From: Sphingomicrobium nitratireducens
GTDB taxonomy: Bacteria; Pseudomonadota; Alphaproteobacteria; Sphingomonadales; Sphingomonadaceae
Length of the DNA: 64,000 bases
Reading direction: 5' to 3'
Assembly: GCF_026157035.1 (NCBI RefSeq)
Contig: NZ_JANJZA010000001.1
Span: forward strand, 1,901,001-1,965,000
The notes below the pieces were generated by a model. The model searched no databases and had not been told where the DNA came from. It saw only the letters and a list, made by a program, of their open reading frames with translations. The translations under genes and the position numbers were made by a program. Of this stretch, positions 4,865 to 18,989 are shown in pieces; the stretch's first letter is position 1, and each line of letters begins with the position of its first letter.

Positions 4865-4929
4865 CGAATCCGTTCGCAGGCCCCATCGAATTGATATAAG
4901 TTAAGCCCGCTCGGGGGAGATTGGCGTTG

Positions 4930-6933
4930 ATGTTGAGTGCGTTGGCCCTGATGGCGATGCAGGCCGGCGGTCCGCCGGTCGAGCCTGAAATCGTCGTCAC
5001 GGGAGAGCGGTCGCGTCGCACGGTGCGCGAGACCGCATCGAGCGTCGCCGTCTTCTCCAACGAGCAGGTCGACGATGCGCTCGTCGATCGCGTCGAAACG
5101 CTCGTCGCCATCGTCCCCAACGTCCAGGAAGGCTCGGAAGGCATCGCCCCGGCAGTGCGCGGACTGGACGGCACCGGCCCGATGCGCGACCTCACTGCCT
5201 TCATCGCCGGCGTGCTCCCGCGGACGACCCTCCAGATCGACGGACGCGAATCCGATTATGCCGAACTCGTCTTCGGCGCGATGCCGCTGTGGGACGTCGC
5301 GCAGGTTGAAATGTTCCGTTCGCCGCAGATCGTCGCGCAGGGCCGCCCGACGGCAGGCGGCGCGATCTACGTCACGACGCGCGATCCGCGGTTCCGGTGG
5401 GAAGGAAGCGCGCGGGCCATGGGCTCGACCCATGACACGCTGAGCGGCGCCATCGCTGTCTCGCTTCCGATCGCCGACGAGGTTGCGGCGCTGCGCCTGT
5501 CGGGGGAATGGCGCGACGGGGAACCTTCGCTCTACTCCAACCCGATCCAGGTCGGCGCATCGCCCAACGAGGAACGCTCGCGCATCGCACGCGCCAAACT
5601 CCTGGTCAAACCGAACGGGATCGCGGGGGCGTTCCGGCTGACCTACGCGCACAGCGAGGGCCTGTCACCGCAGGGGGCCGGGATCCGACCGCCGTTCGAA
5701 GAACGTCGCGACGAGCGCGGATCGGGCGGCGTGTTCCGCACCCGCGTCGATGCGCTGAGCGCGGAATATGACGGCGCGCTCGGTGGCGGATGGCGCGGGC
5801 TCGTCATCGCGACGCGCGGCTGGTCGCGGATCCAGCGGCACGCCCCGCCTCGCTTCGGGGAGACGCTCACCTTTGCCGACGACTGGTCGATCGAGACGCG
5901 TGTGGAGCGGCAGTGGAACCGCACGTCGCTCGCATTCGGCGCGCACCATCTCGACCAGCGCAAGGACCAGCGCATCGACCTCAGCCGCGCGGTGGGTTTC
6001 GGCACGTTCGCGGACAAGAGGACTGCCAGCGGTGCCTATGTCGAACTCGGCCAGCAGTTGACGAGCCGGCTGGGCATGACGCTCGCCGCCCGGCGCCAGC
6101 GCGATCGCCAGCTACGGGTCGGAAGCTTCGCGCCGGAAGCCGCGTCGCTCGGGGTCGACGCGGACCTCAAGACCATGAGCTGGCAGCCCCGCCTGACGCT
6201 CGACTACGACCTCGATCCGGACTGGCGCATCGGATTGCTCGTCCAGCGCGCCTCGACGCCTCCCGGCGCGAGCGTCCCGCTCATCATCGGCGATGACGGA
6301 CTGTTCGGCGGGGAGAAATTGCTCGACGCAGAGATCTACGCACGCGGCCGGTTCGCGAACGGTCGCGGTCGCGTTCAGTTCAACCTCTTCCGCTACTGGA
6401 TCGAGGACTATCAGCGTCCGCTCACCGAAGCGCTCGCGATCCCCGACGTCCCGCCGATCTTCGTGTCGGAGGTCGTCAACGTTCCCGAGGCGAGGATCGG
6501 CGGGCTCGAGGCCGAATTCGGCTACCGGCTGTCGCCGCGGCTGGAGTGGACGGCGGCGATCGGTATGCTAACCAGCCGGATCGTCGACAATGGCGGGATC
6601 GACCGCGTCGCGGTGGACGGAAAGCTCGCGCGGACACCGGCCTTCAGCGGCAACACCACGCTCGCCTTTGCGCCGACCCAACGCTGGCGCCTGTCGGCGA
6701 CGCTGCGCGGGTCGAGCGGCTATTACAGCGACGACGAGAATACGCCCGAGCTGCGCGTCGGAGGCGTGGTGTTCGTCGACGTGCGGGCGGAGCGGCGCTT
6801 CGGCAAGGCGCGGCTGAGCGTCTTCGCGCGCAATCTCTTCGACCGCTTCGCGCTCAAATATTACTACGCGTCAGACTACGCCTTCGCCCACGACCCGCGC
6901 GAGGTGGGTGTGGCGCTCGATTACGACTTCTGA
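4930..6933 (+). CDS. TonB-dependent outer-membrane receptor
   Basis: Ligand-gated outer-membrane importer of 667 residues. EIVVTGE near residue 20 is the TonB-box-like sequence common in sphingomonads; a plug domain follows (about 30-140, ending in GRPTAGGAIYVTTRDPR), then a 22-strand barrel that ends in Phe (ALDYDF). It would take up a scarce ligand (metal chelate, heme, vitamin or sugar) using TonB energy. It belongs with the two TbpB-like lipoproteins and the Slam protein downstream. The ATG at 4930 follows GGGGGAG at 4913-4919. Oddity: the leader (MLSALALMAMQA) has no basic n-region; upstream in-frame codons would encode one (KPARGR) but no standard start codon precedes them. The 3' end overlaps the convergent regulator gene by 13 bases. 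Confidence 0.93.
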   Translation: MLSALALMAMQAGGPPVEPEIVVTGERSRRTVRETASSVAVFSNEQVDDALVDRVETLVAIVPNVQEGSEGIAPAVRGLDGTGPMRDLTAFIAGVLPRTTLQIDGRESDYAELVFGAMPLWDVAQVEMFRSPQIVAQGRPTAGGAIYVTTRDPRFRWEGSARAMGSTHDTLSGAIAVSLPIADEVAALRLSGEWRDGEPSLYSNPIQVGASPNEERSRIARAKLLVKPNGIAGAFRLTYAHSEGLSPQGAGIRPPFEERRDERGSGGVFRTRVDALSAEYDGALGGGWRGLVIATRGWSRIQRHAPPRFGETLTFADDWSIETRVERQWNRTSLAFGAHHLDQRKDQRIDLSRAVGFGTFADKRTASGAYVELGQQLTSRLGMTLAARRQRDRQLRVGSFAPEAASLGVDADLKTMSWQPRLTLDYDLDPDWRIGLLVQRASTPPGASVPLIIGDDGLFGGEKLLDAEIYARGRFANGRGRVQFNLFRYWIEDYQRPLTEALAIPDVPPIFVSEVVNVPEARIGGLEAEFGYRLSPRLEWTAAIGMLTSRIVDNGGIDRVAVDGKLARTPAFSGNTTLAFAPTQRWRLSATLRGSSGYYSDDENTPELRVGGVVFVDVRAERRFGKARLSVFARNLFDRFALKYYYASDYAFAHDPREVGVALDYDF

Positions 6934-8456
6934 GCGAACAGGAAGGCGTCGGGGCGCGTCCCCGTCTTTTTCCAGTAGTCGACTAGCCCCATGCCGGCCA
7001 TCAGCGTCATGAATCGCGGGTCCCCGCGCAGCGCCACGCAGCCCGGGGTGAACAGCATCATCGTGCGCCGCCAGCCCATGTCGTTGATCGTCTCTGCGCG
7101 GGTCTTCGTCTGGACCTTGCCCGCATAAGGGCCACGACCGAGATAGTAGGCGTTGCACACGTCGAGCGCATCATCGAGATAGCCGAGGCTCGACAGGCCC
7201 ATGACGGAAAACGACGCGTAGGACATGCCGAAGCCAACCTGCGAGAGTATAGCGTCGCGCGCGCGCTCGCTGCTGGCCTGTCCACCGTCGATCAACGCCA
7301 GCAGGAGCAGTTCCCAGTGCGGCTTGTTCTTGACGTTTGCGGGCACTGGATAGGTGTGGAGGAAGTCGAGTGCTTCCCTCGCCCTGCCGCTGAAGGCGAG
7401 GATGATGAGCCTCGAGTGCCAGAAGATCGGGTGGTTGGGCCACAGCGAGAGCGAACGGGTCATCACCTGTTCCGCTTTTCCGTTGTCGCCGAGGATCCAG
7501 TGCTTGAGCGCGCCTCTATAGTGTGGGGTGACGCTGAGCGGATCGAGCGAGAGGGCGATCTCGTTATGTTCGAACCCGTCGCTCACCCGACCGACCGACT
7601 GGAAGAGCAGGGCCAAGGAATTGTGGGCGAAGAAATTGTCAGGGTGATCGTCGAGGACGCGGAGCAACGCCTTTTCTTGCGAAAGCCAGTCGCCATATTC
7701 CGGGCGCAGCGTTGCCAGCGCGACGCGCGCATTTCCCTCCTTGTCGTCGAGCTGGAGCGCACGGCGCGCAGCGCGCTGAGCGGCCTCGAGCGCGAGGGTC
7801 ACCTTGTCGGGCCCGCCATTCTCGACCTGCATGCGATAGGCCATCGCCAGGAGCCCCCACGCGCGTGCACTGCGATCGTCGATCCTGGCGGCTTCGGTAA
7901 AGGCCTCGATCGCGCGATCTTCGGTGCCGGGCATGGCCCTGCGCAATACGTCGAGCCCGCGTTCGATCGCGCGCTGCGCCTCGGGAGACGGCGCGCGTTC
8001 GCGTGACGCGAACCAAGTTCCCCCTGCGACGACCGCCAGCGCCGCCGGGCCACCGAACAGGAGCCAGCGGCGGTCGTAGCCGGTTTCCGCATCGTCATCG
8101 CCGAGCGGCTGCGGCGAGGTGGGCCCTTCCCCGATGACCGACAGCCGGTAACCGGTGCGCGGCACGGTCTCGAGATCGAAGGCACCCGGCGCAAGGTCGA
8201 GCGCCTTGCGGACCCCCGAGACCGCGCGGTTGAGACTGTCGTCGCCGACGGCGACCCCGCCCCATACCTGTTCGAACAATTCCTGCCTGCTGACGACCTT
8301 GCCCGCGTCCCTTGCAAGGAGGACGAGCACCTGCATTACGCGCGGTTCGACGGCGCGCTGTTCCTCGTGCGCGATGACCAGGCGCCGCGACGGACTGACG
8401 ACGAGCGGTCCGAACCCGAAGTCGGCTTCTTCCACGAGATCCGCGGGACGCAGCAT
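6921..8456 (-). CDS. Membrane-anchored winged-helix regulator with TPR repeats
   Basis: Protein of 511 residues with three parts: an N-terminal OmpR/CadC-type winged-helix DNA-binding domain (about 10-108, with SRQELFEQVWGG, DDSLNRAVSGVRKAL and the wing VPRTGYRL), one transmembrane helix (about 131-151), and a C-terminal helical region of tetratricopeptide-like repeats (about 160-480). This is the CadC/ToxR architecture: cytoplasmic DNA binding, periplasmic sensing. It lies between the receptor (convergent) and the lipoprotein-Slam operon (divergent), so it is probably their regulator. ATG at 8456 was chosen; a GTG codon just upstream (8459) is equally served by GGGGG. Inducer unknown. Confidence 0.85.
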   Translation of the reverse strand: MLRPADLVEEADFGFGPLVVSPSRRLVIAHEEQRAVEPRVMQVLVLLARDAGKVVSRQELFEQVWGGVAVGDDSLNRAVSGVRKALDLAPGAFDLETVPRTGYRLSVIGEGPTSPQPLGDDDAETGYDRRWLLFGGPAALAVVAGGTWFASRERAPSPEAQRAIERGLDVLRRAMPGTEDRAIEAFTEAARIDDRSARAWGLLAMAYRMQVENGGPDKVTLALEAAQRAARRALQLDDKEGNARVALATLRPEYGDWLSQEKALLRVLDDHPDNFFAHNSLALLFQSVGRVSDGFEHNEIALSLDPLSVTPHYRGALKHWILGDNGKAEQVMTRSLSLWPNHPIFWHSRLIILAFSGRAREALDFLHTYPVPANVKNKPHWELLLLALIDGGQASSERARDAILSQVGFGMSYASFSVMGLSSLGYLDDALDVCNAYYLGRGPYAGKVQTKTRAETINDMGWRRTMMLFTPGCVALRGDPRFMTLMAGMGLVDYWKKTGTRPDAFLFAQKS

Positions 8457-8492
8457 CACACCCCCTTACGCACGACCGTCACCAGTTCGTCA

Positions 8493-8538
8493 GCCCATCA
8501 TCATGGGCCATCGGCTCCTCACGGGCAAGATGAGCCGA
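8493..8538. promoter_or_regulatory. Two inverted repeats in the regulator/lipoprotein intergenic region
   Basis: The 102-base gap between the divergent regulator and lipoprotein genes holds GCCCAT-N4-ATGGGC (8493-8508) and TCGGCTC-N14-GAGCCGA (8511-8538). Position suggests operator sites or 5' leader hairpins for the surface-lipoprotein operon; no binding protein is proven. Confidence 0.4.
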
Positions 8539-8558
8539 CGAAACACGAAGGAGTGACG

Positions 8559-9479
8559 ATGATGGGGATGATGGGAAAATTGCTGGTCGCCGCCTCGGCG
8601 CTGGCACTCGCCTCGTGTGGCGGCGGATCGGGGTCGGGGGTCGCGTCGACTCCGCGGGCACCGGTGGCGCCGACACCCGAACCCGCGCCGGCCCCCGCGC
8701 CGACGCAGGCCGAGCTCGACAACATCATGGAAACGAGCAGCACGAAGGACATCGAGTTCGATGCCGCCGGCTACTATCTCGACAATTCCGGCAAGCTTGT
8801 CGAAGGCGAGTTCAAGGTCAGTTACGACGCGAGCGCGAAGACCTATCGCATCGAGCTGCCCGACCATTCGCCCGGCAATTACCAGGGCTTCCAGATGAAC
8901 GACGAATGGCGCTCCGGCGGCGTCAATGTCGGCACCAGCGAGGGTGTCGGAATTCAGTTCAAGACCATGCCGGATTCGTCCTGGTGCCCCTGCAGCACGA
9001 TCGCCCTCTATTCCGACAGCGACTATGACGACTATGGCGCCTTTGCGATCGGAGTGCGCGCCCTTCCCTCGCAAGTCCTGCCGCATGGAAGCGCGCACTT
9101 CGCGCTCGATCTCGCGGGCGTCACCGAAGACCCGTATTACGATCTCGTCTTCGGCAATGGCGACATGTATTTCGACGTCACCGAAGGAACGCTCACTGGC
9201 CATCTCGCCCCCCAACTCCTCAGCACGGGGGGCGCAGGGGACCTTATCCCGCTGGGCACGTACGACTTCGTCAACACGGTCTATTCGTTCGGAAGCGTCG
9301 ATTTCTCCGGCAAGCTCAGGAACGACGCCAACGGCCTGACCGGCGTCTTCAGCGGCTTCTTCTCCGGGGCCGGCATTAACGTCATGGGCAACTGGCAGGC
9401 GGACTTCCGCAACCCTGACAACGGCAACACCTACAAGATGGGCGGCGGCTTCGTCGGGTTCGACATCAGCGGTCCGTAA
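8559..9479 (+). CDS. TbpB-like surface lipoprotein 1 (Slam-associated)
   Basis: Predicted lipoprotein of 306 residues. A signal peptide ends in the lipobox LASC (Cys near residue 20), followed by GGGSGSG and a Pro/Ala-rich tether. The mature part is beta-rich; the C-terminal third (GTYDFVNTVYSFGSVDFSGK, then GVFSGFFSGAG...GNW) matches the GxFxGxFxG pattern of transferrin-binding-protein-B beta-barrels. Sphingomonad relatives are annotated as transferrin-binding protein-like solute-binding proteins. It probably binds a ligand on the cell surface for the TonB receptor. The start has AAGGAG 6 bases upstream. It is the first gene of an operon with a paralogue and the Slam gene. A CPC motif (SSWCPCS) is present only in this copy. 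Confidence 0.8.
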   Translation: MMGMMGKLLVAASALALASCGGGSGSGVASTPRAPVAPTPEPAPAPAPTQAELDNIMETSSTKDIEFDAAGYYLDNSGKLVEGEFKVSYDASAKTYRIELPDHSPGNYQGFQMNDEWRSGGVNVGTSEGVGIQFKTMPDSSWCPCSTIALYSDSDYDDYGAFAIGVRALPSQVLPHGSAHFALDLAGVTEDPYYDLVFGNGDMYFDVTEGTLTGHLAPQLLSTGGAGDLIPLGTYDFVNTVYSFGSVDFSGKLRNDANGLTGVFSGFFSGAGINVMGNWQADFRNPDNGNTYKMGGGFVGFDISGP

Positions 9480-9531
9480 GCCGCGCCCTCGGCAAATCAT
9501 CGGCGGATCATCATTCAACCGACGGCGCGGC
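9480..9531 (+). repeat. Intercistronic inverted repeat between the two lipoprotein genes
   Basis: GCCGCGCC at 9480-9487, directly after the stop of lipoprotein 1, is the perfect complement of GGCGCGGC at 9524-9531. The 36-base loop has no U-tract after it. It could partly attenuate or protect the transcript between the two lipoprotein genes. Confidence 0.3.
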
Positions 9532-9586
9532 CCGCCGAACGTCTCAGGCAACACGCATCATGTGACTGCGAGTGTGGGAGGAAGTG

Positions 9587-10486
9587 ATGAAGCATCTAAG
9601 AACCATCGTTTGGCTGACGGGTTGCCTGGCCGTGACGGGCTGTGGCGGAGGAAGCGGCGGCACCGGTCAGGTCGGTCGCGTGCTCCCTACTCCCGCCCCG
9701 CCGCCGCCGCCGCCCTCGGATGTCGGGACATTCGCGGACGTCTTCTCCCTCGACAAGTCGACCGATCTCGCAGCCTTCGGGTACGACATTCGCTGGAAGA
9801 CCGGAGGCGCCGACGTCTCCGACGACGTCTCGGTGCACTACGATGCGGCACAAGGCGCCTACATCGTCGAGCTGCCCTATCACGGATCGGGGGGCTTCTA
9901 CGTCGACGAGGACTACGACACGAGCTGGTACGGAACCCTGGCCAACCCGGCCGCCCCGACCGAGCGACAGAACGTGGAACTCTATGTCGAAAAGCCGCTC
10001 CTGACCTATCAGAACCTGGAGTACAGCACGATCGCTTACCTGTCGGCCAACGACCAGAGTGCCGGATATCTGGTATTCGGCGTCCCGACCCTTGCCAGCG
10101 ACATGCCCGTCACAGGTTCGGCGACCTATGCTGCGAACGTGACCGGACTGGCCGTGGGTGGCGGCTATATCGGGGGCACCGCCGACTTCTTGTTCAATTT
10201 CGGTGCCGGGAGCCTCTCCGGCGCGATGGAGGTGAGCGCGTACGACGCCTGGGATGGCTACTTCATCGGCACGTACGACTTCGTGAACACGGTCTACTCG
10301 ACCGGATCGACGACCTTTTCCGGCGGGCTCAAGGACAAGTCGACCAACCTGGCCGGCACCTTCAACGGCGCATTCACGGGCACCGGGGCCGCGGAACTGA
10401 TCGGGCAGTTCGAATTCCAGTTCCGCGACACCTACACGTCCGACCTCCTGACGGCCTACGGCGTGTTCAACGGCAAGAAGCAGTAG
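9587..10486 (+). CDS. TbpB-like surface lipoprotein 2 (Slam-associated)
   Basis: Predicted lipoprotein of 299 residues, paralogous to the preceding gene. The signal peptide ends in a lipobox (AVTGC, Cys near residue 19), then GGGSGGTG and a shorter Pro-rich tether. The C-terminal region shares GTYDFVNTVYS, the GSxxFSG segment and the GTFNGAFTGTGAAEL...G barrel motif of TbpB-type proteins. The N-terminal half has diverged strongly from copy 1, suggesting that the two bind different ligands or different faces of one ligand. The ribosome site GGGAGGAA precedes ATG 9587; only 8 bases separate its stop from the Slam start, so the two are co-translated. Confidence 0.8.
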   Translation: MKHLRTIVWLTGCLAVTGCGGGSGGTGQVGRVLPTPAPPPPPPSDVGTFADVFSLDKSTDLAAFGYDIRWKTGGADVSDDVSVHYDAAQGAYIVELPYHGSGGFYVDEDYDTSWYGTLANPAAPTERQNVELYVEKPLLTYQNLEYSTIAYLSANDQSAGYLVFGVPTLASDMPVTGSATYAANVTGLAVGGGYIGGTADFLFNFGAGSLSGAMEVSAYDAWDGYFIGTYDFVNTVYSTGSTTFSGGLKDKSTNLAGTFNGAFTGTGAAELIGQFEFQFRDTYTSDLLTAYGVFNGKKQ

Positions 10487-10494
10487 AGTTCGCG

Positions 10495-11808
10495 ATGCTG
10501 TTTGCGCTGGTTCTTGCGAGTTCGGCCCCGCCGACGATCATGCCGGTCGATACCGCGCCGTCGTCCAGACAGGTCCGCACGGATGCCCAGTCGTTGCTGC
10601 GGCTGGGGCTGGAAGTCGAGCAGGCAGGACGGACGGGCCAGGCCGAGACAATCTACGAGGCGCTGCTTGCCGATCCCGAGCCGGCGGTCCGCAAGGCTGC
10701 CCGTTTCCGCCTCGCCGTCATGGCGCGCGAAGCGGGCCAGACGAGCGAAGCCGCGCTGCACCTGCGCCGCCTGCTCGACGACGACCCCGGTTTCCTCGAG
10801 GCGCGGCTCGGCCTCGCCTCGATGCTGGTCGAGATTGGCGACGAGGACGCGGCCCTTCGCGAACTGCGCGCTGCTCAGGCCGCGGGGCTCCCGCCGCAGA
10901 TCGCGCGTATGGTCGACCGGATGACGGACGGGCTGCGTGCGCGCCAGCCCTTCCTCGGCCGGTTCGAGTTCGCCTTCGCACCCGACAGCAACGTCAATGG
11001 CGCGACCCGCCTCGACACGCTCGACACGGTTATCGGCGACTTCTCGATCACCGAGGAATCGAAGGAACGCAGCGGCATCGGGGTGGCATTGCGCGGCAAC
11101 GTCCAGGCACAGGTCGGCCTCGGGGGATCGGCGCGGCTCGTCGGCACGGCCGCGACCAGCGCCAACCTCTACCGCAAGTCCGACTTTTCCAACTACGCGC
11201 TCGACATGGGGGCAGGACCGCGGCTCCAGCTCGGCCGCACGCGGCTGGCGCTCGAAGGCGGGCTGGGCAGGCAGTGGCTCGGGGGCGAACCGGTGCGCGA
11301 CTATTGGCGCATCGGGGTGATGGGCCAGCATCCACTGTCGCGAACACTGCACGGCGGGCTCGGGGCGAGCCTGGTCGGCGTCGACAACAAGCGCAATGCG
11401 CTGGAGGATGGCAAACGCTACGGGCTGAACGCCTCGCTCGAAAAGGCGCTAAACCCGGTGACCGGCATCGGCCTGTCACTTGGCGGTGAACGTGCAGCCC
11501 TGGCCGACCCGGGCTATTCGAACTGGTCGTGGCAGGCGCGCGCCTTCGCGTGGCGCGACTGGGGCCGCACGACGCTGACTGCGTCCATGTCGCTGAGCGG
11601 GCTGGTGACCGACGAGCGACTGTCGCTGTTTCCCGACAAGCGCCGCGACAAGGGCCGCCGAGTCGAGCTCGGCGCGGTGTTTCGCCAACTCGACCTGTTC
11701 GGCATGGCGCCTTTCGTGCGCGTCTCGAACGACCGCAATGCGAGTACCATCGCCTTTTATGACTACCGCCGTACCCGCGCCGAATTCGGGCTAGCCCGCG
11801 CCTTCTGA
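10495..11808 (+). CDS. Slam: surface lipoprotein assembly modifier (DUF560)
   Basis: Outer-membrane protein of 437 residues that would translocate the neighbouring lipoproteins to the cell surface. After a short hydrophobic leader comes a TPR-like helical domain (about 25-150, with AAxxR-type helices and LRRLLDDDPGFLEARLGLA), then a C-terminal 14-strand barrel starting at PFLGRFEFAFAPDSNVNGAT. The PDSNVNxAT motif and the terminal RRTRAEFGLARAF are signatures of the Slam/DUF560 family. In Neisseria, Slam1 and Slam2 export TbpB, LbpB and HpuA. Here the gene is last in an operon with two TbpB-like lipoproteins, exactly as expected for a client-translocator pair. Assignment rests on motifs and context, not on a search. 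Confidence 0.85.
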   Translation: MLFALVLASSAPPTIMPVDTAPSSRQVRTDAQSLLRLGLEVEQAGRTGQAETIYEALLADPEPAVRKAARFRLAVMAREAGQTSEAALHLRRLLDDDPGFLEARLGLASMLVEIGDEDAALRELRAAQAAGLPPQIARMVDRMTDGLRARQPFLGRFEFAFAPDSNVNGATRLDTLDTVIGDFSITEESKERSGIGVALRGNVQAQVGLGGSARLVGTAATSANLYRKSDFSNYALDMGAGPRLQLGRTRLALEGGLGRQWLGGEPVRDYWRIGVMGQHPLSRTLHGGLGASLVGVDNKRNALEDGKRYGLNASLEKALNPVTGIGLSLGGERAALADPGYSNWSWQARAFAWRDWGRTTLTASMSLSGLVTDERLSLFPDKRRDKGRRVELGAVFRQLDLFGMAPFVRVSNDRNASTIAFYDYRRTRAEFGLARAF

Positions 11809-11880
11809 CGCTTGAATTCCTGCCGCCCGCAACCCATCTGCCGCCAGAACCGTTCGCTTCAATGACGCCTTGCGCGATGC

Positions 11881-11895
11881 GAACAAATATGGAAC
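11881..11895 (+). promoter_or_regulatory. LexA (SOS) box upstream of uvrA
   Basis: GAAC-AAATATG-GAAC is an exact GAAC-N7-GAAC, the reverse complement of the alphaproteobacterial LexA site GTTC-N7-GTTC. It ends 12 bases before the uvrA start, so LexA binding would block transcription. Confidence 0.85.
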
Positions 11896-11907
11896 ATTCT
11901 GGCGATC

Positions 11908-14829
11908 ATGCTGACCAACATCTCGGTGCGCGGGGCGCGCGAACATAATCTCAAGGGTGTCGACATCGACATCCCGCGCGAAAGCCTGACGGTCATCACC
12001 GGCTTGTCGGGGTCGGGCAAGTCGAGCCTCGCCTTCGACACGATCTACGCCGAAGGCCAGCGCCGCTATGTCGAGAGCTTGAGCGCCTATGCGCGCCAGT
12101 TCCTCGAGATGATGCAGAAGCCCGATGTCGAACATATCGACGGCCTCTCTCCTGCTATCTCAATCGAGCAGAAGACGACCAGCAAGAACCCGCGCTCGAC
12201 CGTCGCCACGGTCACCGAAATCTACGACTATATGCGCCTGTTGTGGGCGCGCGTGGGTGTCCCCTATTCGCCCGCGACTGGGCTACCGATCGAAGCCCAG
12301 CAAGTCAGCCAGATGGTCGACCGTACGATGGCACTGCCCGAAAAGTCGCGTCATCTGCTGCTCGCCCCCGTCGTGCGTGGCCGCAAGGGCGAGTATAAGA
12401 AGGAAATCGCCGAGTGGCAGAAAGCGGGCTTCACCCGCATCCGCGTCGACGGCGAGGTCTACCCGATTGACGAAGCACCCGCGCTCGACAAGAAGTACAA
12501 GCACGACCTCGAAATCGTGGTCGATCGCATCGTCATCAAGGATGGCATCGAGGCACGCCTCGCCGACAGTTTCGAGACCGCACTGAAGCTGTCGGGAGGC
12601 CTTGCCTATCTCGATCCCGTCGACCCGCCCGAGGATGCGGCGCTGACCTCGACCATGAAGCTCGAAAACGCGCCTCCGGGCCGCATCGTGTTCTCGCAGA
12701 ATTACGCCTGCCCGGTTTCGGGATTCACCATCGCCGAGATCGAGCCGCGCCTCTTCTCGTTCAACGCGCCGCAGGGCGCCTGCCCCGCGTGCGACGGGCT
12801 GGGCCAACGGATGGAGTTCGACGAGGATCTTGTCGTTCCCAATCACGGCCTGTCGATCAAGAAGGGCGCGGTCGTGCCCTGGGCGAAGAGCCAGCCCCCC
12901 TCGCCTTATTACATGCAGGTACTCGGCAGCCTCGCGCGCGCGTTCGACTTCGATCTCGAGACCAAGTGGGCCGACCTGCCTGCCGAGGCGCGTGACGCTA
13001 TCCTCTACGGCACCAAGGGCCGCCCCGTCGTGCTGCGCTTCGTCGATGGCCGGAAGAGCTACGAGGTCAAGAAGCCGTTCGAAGGTGTGATCGGTAATCT
13101 CGAACGGCGCCTGCGCACGACCGAAAGCGCGTGGATGCGCGAAGAGCTGGAGAAGTATCAGGCCGCCCATCCGTGCGAGACGTGCGGCGGCTCGCGCCTC
13201 AAGCCCGAAGCGCTGTCGGTCAAGATTGCGGGCGAGGACATCAGCCAGTCGGCGCGCCGCTCGGTCGCCGATGCGCGCGACTGGTTCCTCGGCGTCGAGG
13301 AGCATCTCACCGACCAGCAGAAGGAAATCGCGCGCGCGATCCTCAAGGAGATCAACGAGCGCCTCGGATTCCTCCACAATGTCGGGCTCGACTATCTCAA
13401 CCTGGACCGCACCAGCGGCACGCTTTCGGGCGGCGAGAGCCAGCGTATCCGCCTTGCCAGCCAAATCGGTTCGGGCCTCTCGGGCGTGCTCTATGTGCTC
13501 GATGAGCCCTCGATCGGCCTTCACCAGAAGGACAATGACCGCCTCCTCGAGACTCTCCAGCGGTTGAAGAGCCTCGGCAACACCGTGCTTGTCGTCGAAC
13601 ATGACGAGGACGCGATCCGCACCGCCGACCATGTCATCGACATGGGACCGGGTGCCGGCGTGCGCGGCGGCGAAGTAGTCTGCGCGGGTACGCTCGACGA
13701 AATCTTGTCCTGCGAGGAAAGCCTCACTGCCGACTATCTGTCGGGCCGCCGCGAGATCGCGGTGCCGGCAAGGCGCCGCAAGGGCTCAGGCAAGAAGCTG
13801 ACCGTCCACGGTGCGCGCGCCAACAATCTCGACGACGTGACCGCGTCTGTCCCGCTCGGCACGTTCTCCTGCATCACCGGCGTGTCGGGGTCGGGCAAGT
13901 CGAGCTTCACCATCGACACGCTCTATGCCGCGGCCGCACGTGCGCTCAACGGCGCACGCATCCTGTCGGGCAAACATGACAAGATCACCGGGCTCGAGCA
14001 TCTCGACAAGGTCATCGACATCGACCAGTCGCCGATCGGGCGCACGCCACGCTCGAACCCGGCGACGTATACCGGGGCCTTCACCCAAATCCGCGACTGG
14101 TTCGCGGGCCTGCCCGAGAGCCGTGCGCGCGGTTACAAGCCCGGTCGCTTCAGCTTCAACGTCAAGGGCGGGCGCTGCGAGGCGTGCAAGGGCGACGGGC
14201 TGCTCAAAATCGAGATGCACTTCCTGCCTGACGTCTACGTGACGTGCGACGTGTGTCACGGCCAGCGCTACAATCGCGAGACGCTCGAGGTGAAATTCAA
14301 GGGCAAGTCGATCGCCGACGTGCTCGATATGACCGTAGAAGACGCAGTCGAATTCTTCAAAGCCGTCCCTGGCATCCGCGACAAAATGGCGATGCTGCAG
14401 AAGGTCGGACTTGGCTACATCAAGGTCGGCCAGCAGGCGACGACCTTGTCCGGCGGGGAAGCACAGCGCGTGAAGTTGGCGAAGGAGTTGTCGAAACGCG
14501 CGACGGGACGCACGCTCTACATTCTCGACGAGCCGACCACCGGGTTACACTTCGAAGATGTCCGCAAGCTGCTCGAAGTGCTCCACGCCCTTGTCGAACA
14601 GGGCAATACGGTCGTGGTGATCGAGCATAATCTCGATGTCATCAAGACGGCAGACCATATCCTTGATCTCGGTCCGGGCGGTGGTGTCAACGGGGGCCGG
14701 ATCGTCGCTGAGGGGACTCCCGAAGCCATCGCCAAGTCAGATGCGAGCCACACTGGACACTACCTGCGGCCGATGCTGGCCAAGGCGTCACGTTCCAGCC
14801 AAACGAAGACGCTGGAGGCAGCGAAATAG
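11908..14829 (+). CDS. uvrA: Excinuclease ABC subunit UvrA
   Basis: DNA damage-recognition ATPase of nucleotide excision repair, 973 residues, normal length. Two ABC ATPase modules are visible: Walker [17 protein letters not shown] near residue 30 and [16 protein letters not shown] near 660; signature and Walker B segments [13 protein letters not shown]...[10 protein letters not shown] and [13 protein letters not shown]...[10 protein letters not shown]. The zinc-finger cysteine pairs ([16 protein letters not shown] and CDVCHGQRY) are intact. UvrA dimers load UvrB at lesions. The start overlaps no other gene, and the LexA box at 11881-11895 indicates SOS induction. The stop abuts the convergent sodC. 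Confidence 0.98.
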
Positions 14830-17013: not shown

Positions 17014-17511
17014 CTAAGCTCCAATCAGACCATGTTCGGCCAAGCGGGCAATGATCGTTTCAATCGCGATCCGCGCTTCTACATCGACCACCGCGCCCCC
17101 CGACGGAGAGTCGACTGCCGCACCGCGCGCACCCACGATCTGGCTCCCCGTATAGTCCTCGAGGACGCCTCTCAGTCGATCGCTTTCCCAGCTGCCACCG
17201 ACATGTTTCCAATAACCGCCGGATGAAGGATCGAAGGCGCGCGTTCCTGAAGGAGGGACGACAAATCGCCATCCGCCAACGGCGGCCATCGCCAACATCC
17301 CGTCGCGCCCCGTCCAGTCGCCCGAGGCACCGGATCCGATCAGGAAGCAACTGCCTTCGACGGGACTGGCTGGAGGAGTGGCCTGCGGGGGTCCGACAAC
17401 CTCGGGGTGCAAGAGCATCTCAATCGCCTCGATGGCTTCATTGTGGGCGATCTCCTTCTGCAACTGCCCCGGTACCAGCAGCGGAAGCGCAAGTCGCGCG
17501 GTCTTGGTCAT
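17014..17511 (-). CDS. DUF2793 domain protein, gene-transfer-agent associated
   Basis: Protein of 165 residues with the DUF2793 pattern: RLALPLLVPGQLQKEIAHNEA at the start, a PPASPVEGSCFLIG segment and repeated Gly-Trp motifs (GDWTGRDG, GGWRFVVPP, GGSWESDR). DUF2793 genes are commonly found next to the tail and host-specificity genes of gene transfer agents or prophages in alphaproteobacteria; the function is thought to be in tail fibre or receptor-binding parts but is not established. It starts 4 bases after the stop of the truncated tail gene. It is the only member of this remnant that looks intact. Confidence 0.8.
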   Translation of the reverse strand: MTKTARLALPLLVPGQLQKEIAHNEAIEAIEMLLHPEVVGPPQATPPASPVEGSCFLIGSGASGDWTGRDGMLAMAAVGGWRFVVPPSGTRAFDPSSGGYWKHVGGSWESDRLRGVLEDYTGSQIVGARGAAVDSPSGGAVVDVEARIAIETIIARLAEHGLIGA

Positions 17512-17515
17512 AAGA

Positions 17516-18730
17516 TCACTCCTGAGGGATAAGGATACTGGTGAGATGCGAGCGCCCTTGCTCGCCGACGAAACACACCGAGACGGTAGAATTGGATGCC
17601 GACGTGGGCGGGAGTAATGCGGGGTCGATGACGACGCTGGCCTCGAAGGTAGAGACCGTCGCGACCCCGGCTTCCGAACTGATGATCACTTCGTAGGACC
17701 AGGAGGACTCGCCAATTCCAGCGTCCAATCCGTCGATCCAAGCCCAGCCCTGACGGCTTCTTGGCGTCCAATTGACAGCAAGCGAGCCGTCGGCTTTCCA
17801 GGATGCCTCGAGGTTGGCAGGACGCGGCGGCTTCCACCTTTCCCCGGCGAAGATCATTTCAACGGGAATTGCGTCTTCATCGGCCAGCCCTTCGGGCCGC
17901 AGTGTCATGGTCGACCCGACGCGCTCGATTGGAAGGGCTAGTGTTACAACTCTCCCCGGTTCGACCATGGCGAATGGCTCCCCGATCGAGTGGGACGCCA
18001 TGGCCCAGTCCGTGCCCCGGTATCCGCGGATCAGACCTTTCAGGACGAAGCGGCCTTCCCCTTGCGGAAGCGCCTGAGCGAACTGAATCAGCTCGCTGCC
18101 AAGTAGCGCGATGTTCGCTCCCCCCAGCAGGTCGCTTTCGGTCGCGGATTGAAGCCAGTGCCGCGGATCGATAAGCTGAACCTCGACGGAACTCTGGCGA
18201 TCGATCACGCAAAACTGTCCGCTATCTTCCAGCGCGCCCAGCGCAACCCCGGAAACGCTCTGTGTCGCTGCGCTACTCAGGACTGTCGTCGAGCCGTCGA
18301 GGTCCAACGACAATGGAACGGGCTTCCACCCGGGACTTTCCGTCGCCGCCGCGACGACATGCGTTGAGCCCGACCCATCGCCAAGGTCTGGTATCTCGAA
18401 CAATGCCACCTGCGTGGGTGCGAGGACGATATCTGGATTGGGCGCGATCCTCCCCGCGTCGGAGGGAAGCGTGTCGACATTCGATGGAAACCCTGCCCGC
18501 GATCCGATGACGATGACGACACCTCGCTCGGTCTCGACGTCGATCGCGGCCCACTGAACACCTTGCCACGCGAAGTGATCGCCGGGGCGCAGCCCCATGA
18601 AGCCGGGCCCGAGCCTCAGTCTGACCTTCTCGCGCTCGCGAAAGGCACGCGAAAGGATGTTCTGGGCAGCAGCACGCGCTTCTTGGGAAGTCGTCACGAG
18701 GGGCGCGTCGACCCTGACTTCCAGGCGCCC
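17516..18730 (-). pseudogene. GTA tail / host-specificity protein, 3' fragment
   Basis: About 400 codons matching the C-terminal part of the gene transfer agent host-specificity protein (GTA gp15 type). Recognisable segments are RLEVRVDAPLVTT, LRPGDHFAWQGV, DLLGGANIALLGSELIQFA and GRFVLKGLIRGYRGTDWA, all typical of the phage-tail region, followed by a fibronectin-like end. Full proteins are far longer, with a TIM-barrel-like domain that is absent here. At about 18725-18737 the homology changes abruptly to terminase sequence in another frame. No convincing ribosome site precedes the fragment; GTG/ATG codons inside the joined region could start a short product. Interpreted as the survivor of a large internal deletion. 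Confidence 0.75.
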
Positions 18731-18734
18731 CGCC

Positions 18735-18989
18735 CCGGATCTTCGCATCTCCAGCGATCGAGTGAATCCATTCGGATCCGGCCCGGGTCTTGCCGAAGCC
18801 CCTCCCCGCAAGGATGAGCCAAGTCCGCCAATCGCCCGGTGGCGGCCGCTGCCCTTCGGCGGCCCATGGTTCGAACCAGTGGGCAAGGACCCGTGCTTGG
18901 GATGCCGTCAGATCGAACGGAAGTCCGGGTCGTGGCAGCACGCCATCGCGCTGCCCGTCGCCCGCTTCGGGCGGACGGCTTGTGGCCAT
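18735..18989 (-). pseudogene. GTA large terminase, 5' fragment
   Basis: About 85 codons matching the N-terminus of the gene transfer agent large terminase (gp2 type), which packages DNA. After a Pro-rich leader come DLTASQARVLAHWFEPWAAE, then WLILAGRGFGKTRAGSEWIH with the Walker A motif GRGFGKTR. Homology stops at GDAKIR, just after the motif, and the frame then runs through sequence that encodes the tail protein in a different frame. The rest of the ATPase and the nuclease domain are missing, so the fragment cannot work as a terminase. Confidence 0.75.

Follow-up and report, generated by a model that had tools for sequence, protein, structure and literature searches.

Genes of the Slam locus

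The window analyzed here is a stretch of 64,000 nucleotides from the genome of Sphingomicrobium nitratireducens (contig NZ_JANJZA010000001.1, positions 1,901,001 to 1,965,000); positions are counted from its first nucleotide unless another locus or contig is named. At 4930-11808 the window contains a TonB-dependent receptor, a CadC-like regulator, two cargo lipoproteins (lipo1 and lipo2) and a Slam outer-membrane protein, the translocator of the type 11 secretion system (TXISS/T11SS). An earlier note, made from the letters alone, had named these five genes, and reading-frame and family checks found all of them in place. The Slam export core of the locus is an already known kind of system. Its new parts are a membrane regulator that is constant in receptor-bearing Slam loci and a dispersed cargo family in a genome with a single Slam.

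The reading frame at 10495-11808 (+ strand, 437 aa) encodes the Slam (T11SS) outer-membrane protein. It matched PF04575 (SlipAM) with 27.6 bits, above the gathering cut-off of 22, in agreement with the proposed DUF560/Slam identity. A short signal sequence, recognized by eye, precedes a TPR region (residues 35-137) and the SlipAM barrel (residues 158-437). The N-terminal TPR scored 31.4 bits on TPR_19 (cut-off 25) and the protein 25.8 bits on TPR_Slam, under the cut-off of 35.2. PDSNVNGAT and the C-terminal RAF, which had been read as Slam motifs, map to conserved columns of an alignment of 41 Slams. A search of solved structures returned mostly TPR proteins, with the best matches all to the TPR part and the few others insignificant. 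Note that ARAGORN placed a tRNA-Arg(gcg) at 10903-10983, which is probably false because it lies inside the Slam reading frame.

The two lipoprotein genes lie on the same strand, lipo1 at 8559-9479 (306 aa) and lipo2 at 9587-10486 (299 aa). Their lipoboxes, read by eye, are LASC in lipo1 (Cys20, at 8616-8618) and VTGC in lipo2 (Cys19). The proteins are paralogues, with 33% identity over 217 aa (E 5e-20). The expected match to TbpB-type profiles was obtained in part: lipo2 matched NF041636 (slam_lipo; E 4.6e-6, 27 bits, cut-off 80) and PF01298 (E 0.042, 14.8 bits, cut-off 26) below the cut-offs, while lipo1 matched neither, nor anything relevant in the family libraries. A cargo profile iterated from lipo1 and lipo2 recruited lipoproteins adjoining other sphingomonad Slams. 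The cargo alignment has 74 rows, which are whole proteins or single repeats; 63 of them matched PF01298 and 66 matched NF041636 at E<=0.01, an E-value criterion that differs from the curated cut-offs.

AlphaFold models computed on alignments reached a mean predicted local distance difference test score of 81.9 for lipo2 (model mfd16c8f772bf) and 82.7 for lipo1 (model m7f6f829059e6), with predicted TM-scores of 0.77 and 0.78. In both models a beta-rich handle precedes a C-terminal barrel of eight long strands, which DSSP placed at residues 178-302 of lipo1 (9090-9464, + strand) and residues 178-298 of lipo2 (10118-10480, + strand). Foldseek returned 62 matches for lipo2 at E<=0.001, of which the 50 listed were HpuA, TbpB, NHBA, LbpB, fHbp and HphA chains, the best being HpuA (5ec6, E 4.4e-7). 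For lipo1 there were 42 matches at the same threshold, of the same kinds except for three chains of the unrelated BFA1, and including TbpB (E 4.5e-7). TM-scores over the query were modest for both proteins, mostly 0.3-0.5. Thus, lipo1 and lipo2 are predicted to have a TbpB/HpuA/haemophilin fold divergent from the curated families. The models, the structural matches and the profile matches point to the single-lobe Slam-cargo fold, not to two-lobe TbpB. The description of the pair as TbpB-like is sustained in this form; neither a lack of any match nor a non-barrel prediction was the outcome.

The motif GTYDFVNTVYS, proposed as a shared barrel motif, was found among 135 cargo reading frames in the two window lipoproteins only. 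We reject it as a hallmark of the family barrel, since it is confined to paralogues of the window's own genome, the third of which carries the variant GRYDFVATVYS. At the DNA level this stretch (9255-9287 and 10268-10300) is identical at 31 of 33 nucleotides, while the proteins are 33% identical, which may reflect gene conversion or strong local constraint. Many cargo proteins of other loci contain two or three handle-barrel repeats.

The receptor gene (4930-6933, + strand) encodes 667 aa from an ATG that is preceded by GGGGGAGA; the frame is also open from a TTG at 4921. Both the barrel (PF00593, 72.8 bits, cut-off 27) and the plug (PF07715, 33.8 bits, cut-off 23.9) scored above cut-off, confirming a TonB-dependent receptor, and a TonB-box-like EIVVTG was noted by eye near the N-terminus. 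The regulator gene (6921-8459, - strand) overlaps the receptor gene by 13 bp at its 3' end. Its product matched PF00486 with 47.6 bits (cut-off 26.2), in addition to TPR models, and comprises a winged helix (residues 36-106), a hydrophobic segment from residue 133 and a C-terminal TPR domain. A winged helix-turn-helix with a single membrane segment ahead of a C-terminal domain, as seen by PF00486 and hydropathy, is the CadC/ToxR layout, and the regulator had thus been named correctly as CadC-like. The C-terminal domain is presumably a periplasmic sensor.

Cargo, regulators and receptors in the genome and the family

The window's genome contains one Slam, as judged by a single PF04575 match and a single full-length match to the Slam alignment. 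Five cargo lipoproteins were found at three sites: the two in the window, one at C1:1696905-1697603 and two at C1:2049606-2051117. The genome also encodes three strong homologues of the regulator TPR domain (the next match, at 1e-18, covers part of the TPR only), and each of the three cargo sites has one of these regulators as its direct neighbor, the reading frames being 60-99 bp apart. The two sites outside the window (L100, C1:1695101-1697603; L101, C1:2049606-2052650) are unlinked regulator-cargo sites, the second with its two cargo genes in the same direction. The regulator at C1:2051469 has an HTH different from the others; of the three regulators, the first two are sisters on the regulator tree (support 96). 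Under random placement this arrangement has a rough chance of 3.5e-6, and cassette duplication explains it equally well. Sphingomonas edaphi has three cargo genes, none adjoining regulators. Thus, the pairing of regulator and cargo is a feature of the window's genome and of the module loci described below, not a rule.

The co-occurrence of Slam and cargo was determined in a sample of 199 Sphingomonadaceae genomes, with scoring limited to a small number of top first-look candidates in each genome (6-12). Main-clade Slams (E<=1e-77) were present in 51 genomes, two of the Slams being split or broken, and cargo matches were found in 51/51 of these and in 12 of the 148 other genomes, one of which has a Slam fragment and one a divergent Slam. 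This count is in part circular, since the profiles were drawn from the Slam loci of 39 of the 51 genomes, the window's own among them; the other 12 provide the fair test. In these 12 genomes outside the profile set cargo was found in 12/12, versus 12/148 (Fisher p 7e-12, relatedness not corrected). Genomes with a divergent Slam only (E 1e-33 to 1e-45) contained cargo in 1/8 cases. A cargo gene lay within 1.5 kb of Slam in 38/41 loci (the window and 40 fetched) and in 67/80 loci of a second set, where in 7 of the 13 misses Slam lies less than 600 bp from the record end. Both sets were picked by similarity to the window Slam and have 8 genomes in common; the second comprises the best 80 of 182 Slam matches found with an alignment query in named genomes, where a single-sequence Slam query of the contigs gave no match. 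Cargo-type matches without a detected Slam barrel occur in G015, G033, G047, G054, G057, G065, G151, G168, G171 and G178; such proteins may be barrel lipoproteins of another kind, or they may depend on a translocator that escaped detection.

The close linkage of Slam and cargo, the presence of cargo in every main-clade Slam genome outside the profile set and the characteristic C-terminal barrel argue that lipo1 and lipo2 are Slam clients. That they instead remain periplasmic or are not exported by Slam is very unlikely, even with the divergence of both proteins and their sub-cut-off scores in its favor.

Receptor orthologues (E<1e-100) were found in 5 of the 199 genomes, leaving out of the count weaker matches in G150 (cut by a contig end) and G032, and in 4 of the 5 the receptor lies within the Slam locus. 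The regulator is tail to tail with the receptor in all five genomes, with overlaps of 13, 4, 4 and 4 bp or a gap of 1 bp. In the fifth genome (G047, locus L099) a gene for a protein of the Pfam Beta-lactamase family, on the same strand as the receptor, lies closely upstream of it.

Among 113 distinct Slam loci, the receptor stands beside Slam in 13, a figure that is not a population frequency because the nearest Slams were taken first. The regulator is present in 13/13 of these module loci and an adjacent cargo gene in 11/13. The module loci are those of the window, S. edaphi, G058, G078, Novosphingobium mathurense, N. kunmingense, two Erythrobacter metagenome-assembled genomes, Sphingopyxis jiangsuensis, Sphingomonadales BRH_c42, S. 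rhizophila, Tsuneonella rigui and Qipengyuania gaetbuli. The receptor and regulator genes converge in 8/13 and lie in tandem in 5/13, and two further Slam loci (L163 and L165) have the regulator without a window-type receptor. A further observation concerns locus L063, where a 901-aa protein (10806-13511) with winged helix, protein-kinase domain and TPR adjoins Slam and cargo.

In a FastTree phylogeny of 111 Slams, 3 changes suffice to explain the module, against a mean of 12.5 after shuffling, with 0/500 shuffles as low; the shuffles ignore relatedness. Duplicates and rows shorter than 380 aa were left out of this tree, which has long branches around L066. On a tree of 33 regulators (without L063, L105 and the duplicate L156), the receptor-linked regulators required 6 changes against 10.9, again with 0/500 shuffles as low. 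Thus, the receptor-linked regulators cluster and, with 6 changes, are not one clade. The rarity of the receptor in sphingomonad Slam loci, the regulator as its constant partner and the three further cargo lipoproteins had been overlooked in the earlier note.

Proposed ligand capture and regulation

We consider it probable (roughly 0.6) that the locus is a type 11 surface-lipoprotein system that captures a ligand for the clustered TonB-dependent receptor, with a local regulator. Lipo1 and lipo2 would cross the inner membrane via Sec, be lipidated and arrive at the outer membrane, where the Slam barrel would recognize their C-terminal 8-strand barrels and move them to the cell surface. There they would bind the ligand and pass it to the receptor. 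The membrane-bound winged-helix/TPR regulator would control the local cargo genes, and its sister regulators the two further cargo sites, whose products would likewise depend on the single Slam.

Several findings weigh against this reading. The unbiased figure for the receptor beside Slam is 4/51 main-clade Slam genomes, and because of it capture for uptake cannot be generalized to sphingomonad Slam cargo. Receptor, regulator and Slam occur with no adjacent cargo gene in S. edaphi (L032) and S. rhizophila (L167), and in G047 the receptor-regulator pair was found with no Slam detected. Neither window lipoprotein passed a curated family cut-off. As to the regulator, hydropathy of 36 regulator rows gave no membrane segment in 4 and a segment only elsewhere in 2. 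Strong regulator matches (E<=1e-50) lay within 3 kb of cargo in only 5/32 cases across the family, 3 of them in the window's genome, and on this count a general regulator-cargo pairing was rejected. Two other regulators (L102 and L108) adjoin PEP-CTERM proteins.

The low frequency of the receptor beside Slam and the pair without Slam in G047 would also be explained if Slam and its lipoproteins served surface display, in adhesion, protection or cell-cell interaction, and the receptor were an independent neighbor travelling with the regulator. Consistent with such a role, only 4/37 and 10/70 non-module loci had a TonB-dependent receptor of any kind within 3 kb of Slam or cargo (a lower bound, as the receptor profile had few seeds and the sets share 8 genomes), and in module locus L035 a YadA-head protein (7447-8607) lies between regulator and cargo gene. 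However, of the five genomes among 199 that have the receptor, four carry it within the Slam locus, and the loci with the module group together on the Slam tree (3 changes). We regard such a display role with an independent receptor as unlikely at this locus.

If ligand capture is correct, an iron chelate, siderophore- or haem-like, is our best guess for the ligand, and only a guess. The receptor scored 114.9 bits on the siderophore-receptor model TIGR01783 (cut-off 223.5) and 15.7 bits on the haemoglobin/transferrin/lactoferrin model TIGR01786 (cut-off 323.75). All five receptor orthologues scored best on TIGR01783, always under cut-off, and higher than on the haem-receptor model TIGR01785. 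Because TIGR01783 is a broad model, its support for an iron ligand is weak. The only solved structures matched by the receptor were the pesticin receptor and the colicin I receptor, weakly and over the plug end. Beside the nearest outgroup receptor (L117, 29% identity) lie genes with sub-cut-off matches to FecE, FhuB and SstD models. That the guess is based on distant receptors only counts against it.

A narrower form of ligand capture is that the lipoproteins are haemophore-like and take up haem or a haemoprotein, as HpuA and HphA do. HpuA as the best structural match of lipo2, HphA chains among the matches of both lipoproteins, and sub-threshold HpuA or TbpB_B_D matches of two dispersed lipoproteins of the same genome would fit such a role. 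However, the fold is common to Slam cargo with other ligands, the receptors favor the siderophore model over TIGR01785, and no haem-uptake gene was recognized in the locus. Restriction to haem is therefore doubtful.

With regard to regulation, a repeated ATCAT motif was noticed upstream of the cargo genes, and the following tests are post hoc, the motif having been seen first. It occurs 11 times in 460 bp in four cargo upstream regions (0.75 expected), more strongly enriched than any other 5-mer; with a first-order Markov model 0/200 samples were as extreme, the closest being within a factor of 2 in p. Over all six regions inspected the count is 11 in 598 bp (0.97 expected), with no ATCAT upstream of the receptor or between the two cargo genes at the third site (site C). 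Spacing is about 10-11 bp in places. In the window, ATCATCAT in the regulator-lipo1 intergenic region (8497-8504, + strand) and a direct ATCAT repeat with an 11-bp period in the lipo1-lipo2 gap (9496-9514, + strand) are candidate operator elements, as leads only; an extra ATCAT lies in the same gap at 9557-9561. The pattern ATCATN5-6ATCAT occurs 8 times genome-wide (reversed control 0), 2 of these at cargo sites. Upstream of 17 cargo genes from 12 other loci, only L204 (5 copies) and L163 (3 copies) were rich in ATCAT and the rest had 0 or 1; the motif is mostly absent in other genera. OmpR-type winged helices bind such direct repeats, and the repeat may be an operator of a putative cargo regulon, a lead read from sequence.

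A more specific circuit, in which the periplasmic TPR domains of the regulators would sense unexported lipoprotein or the TPR of Slam and feed back through a shared ATCAT-repeat operator on five cargo genes at three sites, appears improbable. If true, it would constitute a dedicated feedback for type 11 secretion.

Relation to known systems and further features

Like the Neisseria systems in which Slam acts with TbpB-TbpA or HpuA-HpuB, the locus combines a Slam barrel with TPR, lipobox cargo with an 8-strand C-terminal barrel and a TonB receptor. It differs in having two single-lobe cargo paralogues in tandem and a regulator with winged helix-turn-helix, transmembrane segment and TPR, and the low TIGR01786 score sets its receptor apart from the haemoglobin/transferrin/lactoferrin type. 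The regulator shares with CadC/ToxR one-component regulators the N-terminal winged helix-turn-helix, one predicted transmembrane segment and a C-terminal, presumably periplasmic sensor; it is unlike them in that this sensor is a TPR domain and that the gene is linked to those for Slam cargo and a TonB receptor.

Other related systems are described in the literature. TXISS/T11SS subcluster 1C, described as 'largely from environmentally isolated Sphingomonadaceae' and without a characterized representative in that 2021 survey (PMC8406197), and the named cargo type 'Sphingomonas surface protein' (PMC12282271) likewise represent DUF560 proteins with TbpB-barrel cargo in this family. The published cargo has two to three handle-barrel pairs and Pro-Thr repeats, whereas the window has two single-pair proteins with a receptor and a regulator. 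Thus, the claim of a Slam system in a free-living sphingomonad was borne out as to identity, and its novelty was overstated, such systems being already present in these two sources. The haemophilin/HrpABC locus of TXISS-1B also unites Slam, single-barrel cargo and a TonB receptor, but with a soluble cargo that carries signal peptidase I signals (PMC8406197), whereas both window cargo proteins have lipoboxes. A general association of Slam with TonB receptors and TbpB_B_D proteins has been described (PMC8406197), with TonB receptors in 120/185 Slam clusters and several lipoproteins in nine (PMC5449769). The available parts of PMC8406197, PMC12282271 and PMC5449769 do not mention a winged helix-turn-helix/TPR regulator, and a search of the open-access literature, with partial coverage, found no description of a link between Slam and a regulator.

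This compact locus with receptor and regulator makes testable what Slam cargo captures outside animal hosts, and how Slam cargo is regulated. Cargo specificity becomes testable as well, since five cargo genes at three sites accompany a single Slam.

A scan for sigma-70 promoters gave 0 promoter-like sites, and 4 terminator-like sites were found versus 4.0 in shuffles. The next gene after Slam is uvrA (11908-14829). Further downstream, at 17014-18886, lie genes with DUF2793 and Rcc01698_C/Phage-tail_3 matches, resembling the tail genes of gene-transfer agents.

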